Assembly: GCA_964035545.1 (NCBI GenBank)
Contig: OZ037772.1
Coordinates: forward strand, 62,001 to 126,000
Reading direction: 5' to 3'
DNA from: Bugula neritina
Taxonomy: Eukaryota > Bryozoa > Gymnolaemata > Cheilostomatida > Bugulidae
DNA length: 64,000 nt
The notes below the pieces were generated by a model. The model did no database searches. It worked only from the letters and a program-made list of their open reading frames with translations, and was not told the DNA's origin. Within the stretch, counting starts at the first letter, position 1. Every line of letters begins with the position of its first letter. Shown piece after piece: positions 1 to 49,649 of the stretch. A program made the translations under genes and the position numbers.

Positions 1-3000
1 CATTTATATACTAGTAACATTATATTACTACATTTATATACTAGTAACATTATATTACTACATTTATATATTAGTAACATTATATTACTACATTTATATA
101 CTAATAACATTATATTACTACATTTATATACTAATAACATTATATTACTACATTTATATACTAGTAACATTATATTACTACATTTATATACTAGTAACAT
201 TATATTACTACATTTATATACTAATAACGTTATATTACTACATTTATATACTAGTAACATTATATTACTACATTTATATACTAGTAACATTATATTACTA
301 CATTTATATACTAATAACATTATATTACTACATTTATATACTAATAACATTATATTACTACATTTATATACTAATAACATTATATTACTACATTTATATA
401 CTAGTAACATTATATTACTACATTTATATACTAGTAACATTATATTACTACATTTATATACTAGTAACATTATATTACTACATTTATATACTAGTAACAT
501 TATATTACTACATTTATATACTAATAACATTATATTACTACATTTATATACTAATAACATTATATTACTACATTTATATACTAGTAACATTATATTACTA
601 CATTTATATACTAGTAACATTATATTACTACATTTATATACTAGTAACATTATATTACTACATTTATATACTAGTAACATTATATTACTACATTTATATA
701 CTAGTAACATTATATTACTACATTTATATACTAGTAACATTATATTACTACATTTATATACTAATAACATTATATTACTACATTTATATACTAATAACAT
801 TATATTACTACATTTATATACTAATAGCGTTATATTACTACATTTATATACTAATAACATTATATTACTACATTTATATACTAGTAACATTATATTACTA
901 CATTTATATACTAGTAACATTATATTACTACATTTATATACTAGTAACATTATATTACTACATTTATATACTAATAACATTATATTACTACATTTATATA
1001 CTAATAACATTATATTACTACATTTATATACTAATAACATTATATTACTACATTTATATACTAGTAACATTATATTACTACATTTATATACTAATAACAT
1101 TATATTACTACATTTATATACTAGTAACATTATATTACTACATATATATACTAGTAACATTATATTACTACATTTATATACTAATAACATTATATTACTA
1201 CATTTATATACTAATAACATTATATTACTACATTTATATACTAGTAACATTATATTACTACATTTATATACAAATAACATTATATTACTACATTTATATA
1301 CTAATAACATTATATTACTACATTTATATACTAGTAACATTATATTACTACATTTATATACTAATAACATTATATTACTACATTTATATACTAATAACAT
1401 TATATTACTACATATATATACTAATAACATTATATTACTACATTTATATACTAGTAACATTATATTACTACATTTATATACTAATAACATTATATTACTA
1501 CATTTATATACTAGTAACATTATATTACTACATTTATATACTAGTAACATTATATTACTACATTTATATACTAATAACATTATATTACTACATTTATATA
1601 CTAATAACATTATATTACTACATTTATATACTAGTAACATTATATTACTACATTTATATACTAATAGCATTATATTACTACATTTATATACTAGTAACAT
1701 TATATTACTACATTTATATACTAATAACATTACATTACTACATTTACATACTAATAACATTACATTACTACATTTATATACTAATAGCATTATATTACTA
1801 CATTTATATACTAATAGCATTATATTACTACATTTATATACTAATAGCATTATATTACTACATTTATATACTAATAACATTATATTACTACATTTATATA
1901 CTAATAACATTATATTACTACATTTATATACTAATAACATTATATTACTACATTTATATACTAATAACATTATATTACTACATTTATATACTAGTAACAT
2001 TATATTACTACATTTATATACTAGTAACATTATATTACTACATTTACATACTAGTAACATTATATTACTACATTTATATACTAGTAACATTATATTACTA
2101 CATTTATATACTAGTAACATTATATTACTACATTTATATACTAATAACGTTATATTACTACATTTATATACTAATAACATTATATTACTACATTTATATA
2201 CTAGTAACATTATATTACTACATTTATATACTAGTAGCATTATATTACTACATATATATACTAGTAACATTATATTACTACATTTATATACTAGTAACAT
2301 TATATTACTACATTTATATACTAGTAACATTATATTACTACATTTATATACTAATAACATTATATTACTACATTTATATACTAATAACATTATATTACTA
2401 CATTTATATACTAATAACATTATATTACTACATTTATATACTAATAACATTATATTACTACATTTATATACTAATAACATTATATTACTACATTTATATA
2501 CTAATAACATTATATTACTACATTTATATACTAGTAACATTATATTACTACATTTATATACTAATAACATTATATTACCACATTTATATACTAGTAACAT
2601 TATATTACTACATTTATATACTAGTAACATTATATTACTACATTTATATACTAATAGCATTATATTACTACATTTATATACTAGTAACATTATATTACTA
2701 CATTTATATACTAGTAACGTTATATTACTACATTTATATACTAATAACATTATATTACTACATTTATATACTAGTAACATTATATTACTACATTTATATA
2801 CTAGTAACATTATATTACTACATTTATATACTAATAACATTATATTACTACATTTATATACTAGTAACATTATATTACTACATTTATATATTAGTAACAT
2901 TATATTACTACATTTACATACTAGTAACATTATATTACTACATTTATATACTAATAGCATTATATTACTACATTTATATACTAGTAACATTATATTACTA

Positions 3001-3402
3001 CATTTATATACTAGTAACATTATATTACTACATTTATATACTAGTAACATTATATTACTACATTTATATACTAATAACGTTATATTACTACATTTATATA
3101 CTAATAACATTATATTACTACATTTATATACTAATAGCATTATATTACTACATTTATATACTAATAACATTATATTACTACATTTATATACCAATAACAT
3201 TATATTACTACATTTATATACTAATAACATTATATTACCACATTTATATACTAGTAACATTATATTACTACATTTATATACTAATAACATTATATTACTA
3301 CATTTATATACTAGTAACATTATATTACTACATTTATATACTAATAACATTATATTACTACATTTATATACTAGTAACATTATATTACTACATTTATATA
3401 CA
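1..3402. repeat. 30-bp minisatellite, about 113 copies
   Basis: A tandem array with period exactly 30 bp (unit begins CATTTATATACTA and ends TATATTACTA) runs from the window edge to about 3402 with essentially no indels. Copies differ mainly at one site (CTAGTAAC versus CTAATAAC). It lies in the GAPVD1 intron downstream of exon 30 and continues off the left edge. Confidence 0.98.
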
Positions 3403-3577
3403 AATAGATTCACTGGACACATTAATTACTATATTGCATGCCAATATTACACTATATGTATATCACTATATTACACACATATATTACTACATTAAACATA
3501 TATATTACCTTATCACATACACATATTACTATATTACACATGTGCTACTATACTAGAATACAATAAGAGAGGCAAAC
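3403..3577. other. Non-repetitive remnant of GAPVD1 intron 30
   Basis: AT-rich intron sequence between the 30-bp array and the exon 30 donor, containing degenerate copies of a TATTACTATATTACA-like motif that may be decayed array material. No gene seen. Confidence 0.6.
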
Positions 3578-35675
<32,098 letters not shown>

Positions 35676-45788: not shown

Positions 45789-46751
45789 TCAAGCTCTCTG
45801 TCCACCATTCATTGGGGAGACTTTGTTGAATCTTTTCAGTTTCAAATGACTTCGAACTACACTAAGATATTTAGGGTGAAAGCAAGCAAACAGAGGGATA
45901 TTGACAATACTATAAAGTGAGGTTAGCACAGCACCAACAGCTTCTACTGTGTCTGTTATTAGAGGAGAGACCTTCAGTATTGTACAGATTACAAACATGA
46001 CTGTAGAGATGAGCGAGGACTGACAGATGATTTATATCAAAATGATGTATTTGCTTGCTGCCATAAGGACCCTGTTATTGGCAGCATTACTGCTTACCAT
46101 TTCTCTCAGCTTCCTCCACACTTTCACCAACAACACTGTGATTAGTATGGAGAGAGTGAGGACTGTCACTACATACAGACTACCTACTAAGGAGCCTGTC
46201 AGAGTCTTCTCAGCTATCTGAACCTTGAGTGAAGCCTGACACAGTGGATGTGCTATAACTAAGCTGCCAATTGCTTTCAACAAGAAAGCTAGAACATATA
46301 GAAATACAGTGAAACTCTTCAGGTTGACTATGAGGACATGAGTACTATAGCTGTATGGTCTACATACACCTACGTACTTCTCAACACTGGCAACCAGAAA
46401 TACCATAAATCTCAACAAAGAAGCATAACCGGTCAAATTTCCTATTGCTTTAAATGTCCAGTAAGCAGCGGCGACAGGAAGTTGAAGAATTAAATGTCTA
46501 ATGTCGCAGTTTAAGTATACTACGAGGATAATGTTAGTGGTAATGTCACTAACACTGATGTTTATCAGAACCCAGAAGTATTTGGTAGTCTTCAGCTCCT
46601 TCATATCATTCAGTATGAGCAGATGGAGAATGTTCAGAAGTATGGAGAGGCAGTTGATTCCGACGTAGATCTCATTGAATGGCTGATAGCAGAGAACTGT
46701 CTCGTTATCACATGGCAGGATCTCCTCGTATGCTGAACTATAGTTTCCCAT
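45789..46751 (-). pseudogene. Class A (rhodopsin-like) GPCR with one in-frame stop in TM6
   Basis: A single-exon frame from ATG 46751 reads MGNYSSAYEEILPCDNETVL (N-glycosylation sites), then TM1 (SILLNILHLLIL), TM2 with ISVSDI (conserved Asp), TM3 ending VEKYVGVCRP (E/DRY position), TM4, TM5 (VVTVLTLSILITVLLVKVW) and the start of TM6 (KYIILI). TAA at 46032-46034 then interrupts. The same frame continues for 80 codons without gaps: IICQSSLISTVMFVICTILK (rest of TM6), TM7 with SIVNIPLF in the NPxxY position, and a short basic tail ending at 45789. Total about 320 codons, normal for the class. The likely causes are a recent pseudogene, an allelic null or an assembly error; readthrough is less likely. 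Ligand unknown. Confidence 0.85.
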
Positions 46752-46984
46752 TCTCTGCTGGATACCAACTGGGAGTCTCCTGTGTCACTAGTTGTCTATG
46801 TAAGAGAATACAGTTGATAGTAACAATGGTACTGAACAGGTTTTTCAAGTTAACACGTGAAATATGTATGAGTAATGTGTAAGTACGTCTCAAATACTGT
46901 AAACTGGATTTAGGATTTATACAGCTTCAACTAGTCAGTATACTGTACGCCATCTTAAGGTGTATAATGACTCATGTCTGTATG

Positions 46985-47480: not shown

Positions 47481-48386
47481 TGTACTACGACATTTGCTAT
47501 ATAATACTGTGTTACATGTATACTGTTACACTACACAAAATAAACCGCTTAATATACTATAGCATACACTGTATACTATACTATGTATACCACAGTGTAG
47601 CCTACTACATATTTTAATATACTATAATATATACTACATACTATACAGTAAACAATATGTAATATATACTATTTACTGTATACTGAATGGGTACTATAGC
47701 CCACATTATATGCTGTACACTGTATTCTATGCACTATAAACTATATACAATGTATATGCTAATATATACTATACACTGTATACTGTATAGAGTGTATAGT
47801 ATACATGCACACAAGTATACTGATATTTATATTCTTACTGTTTCCCCAGACTTTCCACTTTACTCCAGCTAATAGAATATCTGTAACATTGAGAGAGACA
47901 AGCAAGGCCACTCTACTGTGTCTACTTAATGCCTTTGTTTTCCTGAATACAAGCTACTTATAGCATTTAATATTCATTCTTTTTTTTGCAAATATACTTA
48001 AATAGATTATTATTACCAACACATGGGTTGGCTGTAATGCTGTTAGCATAGTGTATAGTCATGTTGGAGGTTAAATGAGACACCAGGAACAGGATGTGAT
48101 AATCCATTGTGTAGTCTGTGTTACATGATTTATTTGATTTTAATAGAGTGAAGAGTATGGATTGTAGCACTGACTTAGTATATATACTATATTATATGTA
48201 ACAGTGACTTAGTATATATACTATAGTACTATATACTATATATATACTATATTATTATATGTAACACTGCCTTAGTATAATATATAACATATTATATGTA
48301 ACACTGCCTTTACACACCTTTTAAATATGCTTTAGTAGAAACATAAGTTTTTACTATTGCGAAGGTGTGGGCCATGGTACTCTGTT

Positions 48387-48432
48387 CTGTGCTGATGAGG
48401 GGACAAACCCCGAAACAGCCGCTGTCCACAGA
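48387..48432 (+). ncRNA. Type I hammerhead ribozyme (candidate)
   Basis: All elements of the hammerhead core are present in order: stem I 5' strand CTGTG (48387-48391); CTGATGA (48392-48398); stem II GGGG/CCCC with loop ACAAA (48399-48411); GAAA (48412-48415); stem III CAG/CTG with loop CCG (48416-48424); cleavage triplet GTC (48424-48426); stem I 3' strand CACAG (48427-48431), which pairs exactly with CTGTG and adds an A-T pair at 48432. Cleavage is predicted after 48426. Minimal type I hammerheads with a short stem III are known from Penelope-like elements and retrozymes of animals. No reverse transcriptase is nearby. Confidence 0.8.
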
Positions 48433-48435
48433 TTG

Positions 48436-48436
<1 letters not shown>

Positions 48437-48483
<47 letters not shown>
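48437..48483. repeat. (TA)n microsatellite
   Basis: Perfect TA dinucleotides starting 5 bp after the hammerhead stem I. Confidence 0.98.
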
Positions 48484-48488
<5 letters not shown>

Positions 48489-48569
48489 CTCACGCAAGTT
48501 TATAGTCGCTATCCCTGTTAGAAAACCCCTGATGGGAGGGTTTTTGTTAAATAAGGCTAAGGACTTATT

Positions 48570-48696
48570 TAAATGAGGCACAGGAGCAATTATGACTGGA
48601 TGCTCTTCTTAACATCACCAGTGGCCTTTGTCTGGGATTGAACCCGTGACCTTCGGGCTTACTAGGCAAACGCTCTAACCCCTAGACCACAGCTAC
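48570..48696 (-). mobile_element. tRNA-derived SINE
   Basis: The minus strand reads GTGGTCTAGGGGTTAGAG (A box) and GGTTCAATCCC (B box, complement of 48634-48644) about 30 bp apart, with anticodon-arm-like sequence between. It continues as a non-tRNA body containing AAGAGCATCCAGTCATAA, a motif seen in several animal SINE families. This is the best-preserved SINE in the window. Confidence 0.8.
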
Positions 48697-49649
48697 TTCA
48701 TCCCTGTTATATATACTAATAATATATATTATATTAAATGTAACAGTGAATTGGTACATATAATAATACTATATATTATATTAAATGTAGCAGGAATTTA
48801 GTATGTATGTTTTATATATAATATGGTTTATATGGCACTTTAAAGAGCCATATTGTTTTATTATATTACACAATAATCTGATATTAAAGTTTGTTATATT
48901 ATTATTGCATATCATTTGATGTTTTATGTTTATATTTAGTTTATATTATATCATATTAGGCCTTCATAGTAGTTTAATATAGTTTATTATGCTATATACT
49001 CCATTACATTATACTATGTTATTACAATCTAACACTAATGCATGAACAATTCCAATTGATATTCTAGCTCACTGAAGTTTATTTGGAGTTGTTTCTCTTG
49101 GTAAATCTTTTTATCTGTTAACTAACATTTATGTTTATGTAACTAGTTATTAAAACACAAACAATTTTGAAATAATTATAATTATATTTTGCATTATCTA
49201 AAATGTTTACTTTAAACAAAGAATCTACAATTTGTTTCAAATGTAATTAAACACTTTTATACTTGAAAATTCTTTAGTATATTGTAATGGAAGACAAAAC
49301 AATCTGGCAGCAGTAGAACAAGCTACAAATGTCCCAATTTTACATGGTCTATTTGGTTTTTTGAATGCGGCTATTGTAATGACTGCCGCAGTAATGCCAT
49401 TGTGAATCCAGAACTAGTACCATGTCTGTACTGTTTCCAAAAACTTCAACTTGCAAATATAGTTTACAATCTAACTATATATATATATATAGTTATTGTC
49501 ATTTTTTGTCATTTCTTGTCATTTCTTGTCGCAGTTGCTTGGTAGATTAGGTTTGTGCATAGGCATTTAACATTCAATTACTTGTGATATATACACATTA
49601 TTTATATGGCAATTTACATTTAATGGTAAATTATTCCTTATTTTGTACA

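Follow-up and report, generated by a model that had tools for sequence, protein, structure and literature searches.

What kind of sequence is a hammerhead-like motif that lies beside a TA repeat and a SINE in the genome of the bryozoan Bugula neritina, and how did it come to be there? The motif was noticed in a 64,000 nt stretch of contig OZ037772.1 (positions 62,001 to 126,000 of the forward strand; hereafter, the window), and a preliminary description took it for a complete type I hammerhead ribozyme, perhaps a solo non-autonomous copy from the world of retrozymes and Penelope-like elements (PLEs), perhaps a new SINE-linked ribozyme family. As far as the letters go, that reading is sound. 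The invariant core (CUGANGA, GAA and UH at the cut site) is all present, and stems I, II and III pair without mismatch as had been claimed, with stem III read here as ACAG/CTGT and stem I open (Table 1). Stem I can be extended by an outer pairing of TACTC with GAGGTA, with one bulge. The extended stem I with its internal loop and the 5-nt loop II are both present, and a contact between these loops lies beyond the reach of secondary structure.

Table 1. Coordinates of the hammerhead motif and its neighbours in the window, and of PLE hammerheads at other loci
Feature	Position	Strand	Remarks
Type I hammerhead ribozyme, core and stems I–III	48387–48431	+	predicted cut between 48426 and 48427
Stem I	CTGTG 48387–48391 / CACAG 48427–48431	+	from the letters
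CTGATGA core segment	48392–48398	+	from the letters
Stem II (whole 48399–48411)	GGGG 48399–48402, loop ACAAA, CCCC 48408–48411	+	from the letters
GAA core segment	48412–48414	+	from the letters
Stem III (whole 48415–48425)	ACAG 48415–48418, loop CCG, CTGT 48422–48425	+	from the letters
C17	48426	+	from the letters
5'-truncated retrozyme-like copy, about half of the 272-bp unit	48309–48440	+	3' end GAGGTA; full unit in locus L004
(TA)23 microsatellite at the 3' junction of the element	48439–48484	.	46 nt; Tandem Repeats Finder
tRNA-like SINE copy (query stretch)	48481–48700	-	neighbour, outside the element
Hammerhead of a PLE, close to its 3' end	L032: 2117–2165	-	RF00163, below gathering score
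PLE hammerhead motif	L025: about 1270–1330	+	by eye

Taken by itself, the motif in the window would rank as a reasonable candidate only. Its bare core pattern, with an expectation of 0.09 for the window, is found there once, and 8 of 100 shuffled sequences had at least one, so that its presence there is only moderately unlikely by chance. The hammerhead fold (-12.7 kcal/mol) lies about 7 kcal/mol above the minimum-energy structure (-19.8 kcal/mol), and the minimum energy itself is ordinary in comparison with shuffled sequences (z of -1.83, -0.76 and +0.15 for 46, 71 and 97 nt, respectively). The covariance-model search suggested as a check gave a negative result, with no Rfam family reaching its gathering score in the window. 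The best hammerhead match on the motif was to RAGATH-1-hammerhead (RF03152; 18.9 bits, E 0.17 in the 67 bp searched), and a longer stretch of 221 bp scored 15.0 bits (E 4.1), the cut-off being 56.3 in both cases; such a threshold is an aid to detection and not a defining trait of hammerheads.

Matches elsewhere in the genome decide the matter. A search of the 215.8 Mb assembly (295 contigs) with the 27-nt core pattern CTGATGAGGGGACAAACCCCGAAACAG, allowing up to three mismatches, returned 577 matches (291 + 286), while the reversed control pattern returned none (0 + 0), and on this scale the earlier judgment that chance is an unlikely explanation stands. The core matches are dispersed over many contigs, and adjacent ones are frequently spaced 272 bp apart. 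The tandem and dispersed copies that the preliminary description had proposed to look for are thus present: with the 272-bp unit of locus L004 as the query, units were found head-to-tail in runs of 0.2 to 5, and the full-length ones listed are 94–100% identical (40 of 635 candidates scored). COX1 matches were seen on contigs C17, C196, C65 and C295, of which the one on C295 is mitochondrial and reads well with TGA as Trp and AGR as Ser (by eye), and the copy on C17, free of in-frame stops, may belong to an associated microbe; the assembly may include companions of the host.

The unit has a GC content of 45.6% and, folded as a circle, an energy of -103.5 kcal/mol, compared with -68.9 kcal/mol in 100 dinucleotide shuffles (z -6.9). 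It is too short to encode a reverse transcriptase and a GIY-YIG endonuclease, and no pol III A/B box consensus was matched within it. Its size is within the 150–450 bp of metazoan non-LTR retrozymes, with one type I hammerhead in each tandem unit, and the GC content below 50%, strongly self-paired RNA, dispersed and non-coding copies, and PLEs in the same genome are further traits of that group. By its anatomy, the family is metazoan non-LTR retrozyme-like, with self-cleavage predicted. Among 92 ribozyme instances from the fetched loci and the window, counted after exclusion of matches not spanning positions 13–57 of the 66-nt query, the core (11 letters checked) is intact in 78, and core and paired stems I–III are kept in 72. 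No compensatory changes were seen among these instances, the copies being too alike for that test. Since stem III is nearly palindromic, dimeric ribozymes are conceivable. Two variants of the arrays were observed: an 8-bp duplication (ACAGCTGC) within stem III of one array unit of L004 (near 1501–1560), and a short array in L002 (about 1362–1550) where the ribozyme is directly followed by GTTTACACACC, giving a unit of roughly half size by internal deletion.

Similar repeats are known from several systems. The metazoan non-LTR retrozymes treated in passages of PMC7229834 likewise consist of short units arranged head-to-tail, each containing one type I hammerhead, in dimers to multimers, with RNAs of about 170–400 nt, low GC, strong self-pairing and PLEs in the same genome. 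The hammerhead satellites of schistosomes and newts, in the parts of PMC4918200 and PMC7229834 that concern them, also form tandem arrays in animal genomes, with a repeat length of a few hundred bp, but by their descriptions have a different unit; the schistosome repeat contains a tRNA sequence, unlike the unit described here, with its lack of an A/B box match. In plants, the retroviroid-like DNA of carnation, CarSV, resembles the family in being the multimeric DNA of a small viroid-like RNA in microsatellite-like genome sequence, but is linked to a pararetrovirus (PMC9695139, in part).

It is close to certain that the feature in the window is a truncated copy of this family. Its last two bases overlap the TA tract, and its 66-nt ribozyme stretch is a variant counted in 10 of the 92 motif instances, the window included. 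The copy carries a single ribozyme and so cannot itself release a unit circle. The neighbours named in the preliminary description, a TA repeat and a SINE (tRNA-like, minus strand), were both found, and the reported lack of reverse transcriptase and GIY-YIG sequence nearby agrees with a tblastn search using three PLE protein pieces, which found no match in the window (E up to 1e-6). The TA repeat is the key feature at this locus, being the insertion target of the family. Elsewhere in the window, positions 1–48000 are very dense in mini- and microsatellites (for example 1–3406, 17231–19441, 21256–24225 and 26266–30001), Tandem Repeats Finder giving 79 rows across the whole window, and an open frame on the minus strand (46032–46784) resembles a seven-helix membrane receptor by eye, without a Pfam match.

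The SINE, in contrast, appears to be a bystander. A SINE-linked ribozyme family was the second of the two readings offered at the outset, and the adjacency of SINE and ribozyme in the window speaks for it. However, the SINE matches well at five other places (L044, L017, L070 = L022, L031, and L021 = L008) as well as at two short stretches of the window, with neither a TA tract nor a retrozyme at the end of any of them, while the listed retrozyme junctions show TA and not this SINE. A sixth match, cut off (L105), adjoins the TA tract of a PLE. These loci had been fetched for a nearby retrozyme, and the comparison is a look at junctions rather than a survey of the genome. A SINE-linked family is extremely improbable on this evidence, and it is the reading as a solo non-autonomous copy that holds.

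The insertion junctions reveal how the copies end. From 68 loci, 77 non-redundant insertions were parsed, with matches below 60 bp or within 60 nt of a locus end dropped before counting. The loci had been picked either by an exact match to the 27-nt core (on the first-listed contigs; 78 places chosen, 40 stretches retrieved) or by the best full-unit match, so young and intact copies are over-represented. In 76 of the 77 insertions, the 3' end lies beyond the cut site of the ribozyme, typically 14 nt past it, where CCACAGATTGAGGTA is followed by TA repeats; some stop a few letters sooner. The exception (L064) has its 3' end inside the ribozyme, yet beside TA. With pure TA runs of 8 nt or more scored up to 6 nt from a junction, 75 of 77 insertions have one on the 3' side (the exceptions being L006 and one insertion of L041), 59 on the 5' side and 58 on both, whereas random places taken from the window and from the distal flanks of the same loci have such a run in 1.3% and 2.1% of cases, respectively. 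The window copy, with TA on its 3' side and no pure TA run at its 5' side, is one of the 18 that lack the latter.

The 5' ends are spread around the whole unit, not quite uniformly (KS p 0.013), and the insertions range from 62 to 1375 nt, 41 of 77 being longer than one unit (>275 nt) and 34 shorter. Their lengths do not depart significantly from an exponential fall-off with a mean fitted to the data (KS p 0.22). Among the 59 5' junctions flanked by TA, there are 46 at which the first bases of the element continue the TA alternation for at least 1 nt, mostly for 1–3 nt; the expectation is 27% for random ends, or about 47% once alignment creep is taken into account. Within a (TA)n tract, a target-site duplication is not discernible from the surrounding repeat. 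Satellite-like DNA spreading by unequal crossing-over and segmental duplication, without retrotransposition, could account for head-to-tail units that are near identical in most arrays. It fits poorly with sites dispersed on many contigs among flanks that are unrelated by eye, with a pair of unlike ends (one near-constant, the other variable) that mostly lie at TA, and with the large share of insertions below unit length, and we regard it as very improbable.

The position of the 3' ends also bears on the RNA that was copied. With 76 of 77 ends past the cut, the template was continuous across the cut site, either a closed circle or an uncut multimer, and was not a cleaved linear monomer. Adjacent full units differ at 0–2 positions in 10 of 13 arrays, and in L088 an adjacent pair differs by 1 while a third unit beyond a gap differs by 9–10. 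Separate arrays are also alike, with a median of 5 differences between arrays (3.5 among multi-unit arrays) and only 1–2 among those of one subfamily (L084, L085, L087, L089 and L090), which makes homogeneity within arrays weak evidence. The remaining three arrays have unlike units, differing at 5 (L028), 13 (L035) and 10 (L086) positions, and do not fit repeated passage round a single circle; they may stem from multimeric transcripts, template switching or later change.

These three arrays, together with the finding that cleaved monomers were not the template, lend some weight to the idea that the ribozyme is dispensable for spread and that uncut multimeric transcripts, not circles, were copied, as does the observation that ribozyme mutants of an Anolis PLE left insertion in vitro unchanged (PMC11167929). 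Against this, the core is intact in most instances, albeit in a sample biased toward intact cores, and 5' truncation shortens copies, so that regrowth to several units would need a circle or very long transcripts. A dispensable ribozyme is, in our view, rather unlikely. The ends of the insertions are best accounted for by target-primed copying, at TA tracts, of a putative circle.

Which enzyme would do the copying? LINEs were considered as partners and rejected: in 20 stretches from four families, none of the 17 readable 3' junctions has a TA tail (of the unreadable stretches, L125 is off target, and L120 and L122 end short of the junction). Their tails are (AAAC)n, an A-run region, AAGT-like repeats or a short ACA end, and the TA runs of one locus (L126) lie farther out, inside a tandem repeat. 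According to part of PMC8969392, a work that also treats animal retrozymes and the PLE hypothesis, LINE 3' ends commonly have AT-rich microsatellites nearby, a point in favour of TA tracts being generally attractive sites.

PLEs had seemed absent, as a Pfam search for GIY-YIG gave one match, but this proved to be a false negative, the domain scoring at or below the Pfam cut-off. Open frames in the flanks of the retrozymes include PLE-like proteins of two types, assigned by eye from domains and layout. For the first type, L059 matches RVT_1 (E 1e-9) and a piece in L058 scores 22.4 bits for GIY-YIG, just below the cut-off of 22.6. The other type is represented by five pieces, of which one has a sub-threshold match to RVT_1 and four are without a Pfam match. 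By tblastn with the three protein pieces, PLE coding sequence is present in 14 of 80 retrozyme loci, a count that includes overlaps (L004, L005, L012 and L036 are one place, and L027 and L045 another).

The second type carries a hammerhead after its reading frame, which in L032 scores 25.9 bits with RF00163 (E 1.1e-4 in 141 bp; gathering score 34). A search of the whole genome with RF00163 gave no match, but says little, since it was silent in the control genomes too and missed the PLE hammerhead found locally; a pattern for the classical PLE hammerhead with UCC/GGA in stem II also had no match. On its 3' side the second type terminates either 62 or 132 nt beyond the predicted cut, and where the junction is visible both kinds of end reach TA. 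The two alternative ends recall the optional tail of PLEs. All 20 fetched PLE ends, taken from 44 matches and chosen among those extending to the end of the query, are in TA repeats, some of which soon pass into GT or CA repeats. An 18-mer from the PLE 3' end has 94 sites in the genome, 85 of which continue with two bases and (TA)4, and the first PLE type likewise ends in a long TA tract (L058). On contig C9, PLE 3' ends occur on one strand at 2730336, 2733064, 2735650 and 2738230, 2.6–2.7 kb apart, like a tandem PLE array.

The similarity in sequence between PLE and retrozyme is not significant, 25 of 300 shuffles scoring as high, so the link between them rests on the common target, the ribozyme class and the neighbourhood. 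It is accordingly conceivable that the same retrozyme family has a partner other than a PLE, with fragile (TA)n tracts capturing the cDNA of whichever reverse transcriptase is present. The missing common sequence favours such capture, the microhomology at 5' junctions fits end joining, and the insertion of L064, with its 3' end inside the ribozyme, can be read in the same way. TA tracts also carry other insertions: long inverted-repeat stretches adjoin the same tracts in L001 and L003 (by eye), which suggests that mobile elements of several kinds reside in TA microsatellites, and such tracts could be generally attractive, break-prone sites. On the other side, the LINE junctions are free of (TA)n tails, SINE copies were seen mostly away from TA, the PLE copies show the same type of junction as the retrozymes, and passive capture does not predict a near-constant 3' end. 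Capture by a non-PLE enzyme is possible but doubtful, and the action of a PLE on the retrozyme is the best-supported hypothesis for the partner.

We consider it probable that the motif in the window is the ribozyme carried by a single, 5'-truncated copy from a non-autonomous, non-LTR retrozyme family, which is moved by PLE-type machinery via an RNA circle at (TA)n; cleavage, circles and the action of PLEs we infer from the arrangement of the copies. Under this proposal, copies with at least two ribozymes would be transcribed and cut at sites equivalent to 48426/48427, and the unit-length RNA would be circularised by a host ligase. In other animals, such circularisation was shown by Cervera & de la Peña 2020 (PMC7229834, in part). 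The next step would fall to a PLE-type reverse transcriptase/endonuclease encoded in the same genome: having opened a (TA)n microsatellite, it would prime at a constant position of the circle, about 14 nt beyond the cut, and continue copying round until it falls off. The cDNA would then be joined by its far end to the opposite side of the tract, mostly through 1–3 nt of microhomology. The cycle explains the observed anatomy, with a near-constant 3' end, a variable 5' end, 0.2–5 units and TA at most ends. The more specific proposition, that retrozyme circles are copied on (TA)n by a hammerhead-bearing PLE through target-primed rolling-circle reverse transcription, such that the shared target identifies the autonomous partner and one internal-start mechanism serves both, has in our estimate about an even chance of being correct.

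Such an internal start has a parallel among PLEs with minimal type I hammerheads (PAc, Anolis; PMC11167929), which share with the elements described here the hammerhead, tandem copies and an AT-rich target. The Anolis PLE prefers AT-rich DNA and starts its cDNA inside the RNA, past the cut, at a place that does not match the cut DNA (PMC11167929). It has two start sites, a trait to which the two 3' ends of the PLE in B. neritina may correspond by analogy. Unlike PLEs, the element in the window is non-coding, and the retrozyme 3' end lies 14 nt past the cut, much closer to it than the PLE ends.

New here is a near-constant 3' end just past the cut, at a pure TA microsatellite, in an animal retrozyme family. 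In the part of the literature covered, we came across neither a retrozyme nor a PLE described as targeting (TA)n. Other microsatellites reportedly harbour PLEs in an algal group. The (TA)n target, the near-constant 3' end and a ribozyme below Rfam thresholds distinguish the family from the retrozymes in the available portions of PMC7229834, the main text of which does not use the word "microsatellite".

As to the enzymes that move animal retrozymes, PLEs are the favoured guess, argued from co-occurrence and shared traits in the relevant passages of PMC7229834 and PMC7761336, whereas in B. neritina a PLE is tied to the same target. With a retrozyme and a PLE that share one narrow, recognisable target in one genome, this guess becomes a testable pairing, and the constant 3' end, variable 5' end and smooth range of lengths are a record, in DNA, of how the RNA template was read.
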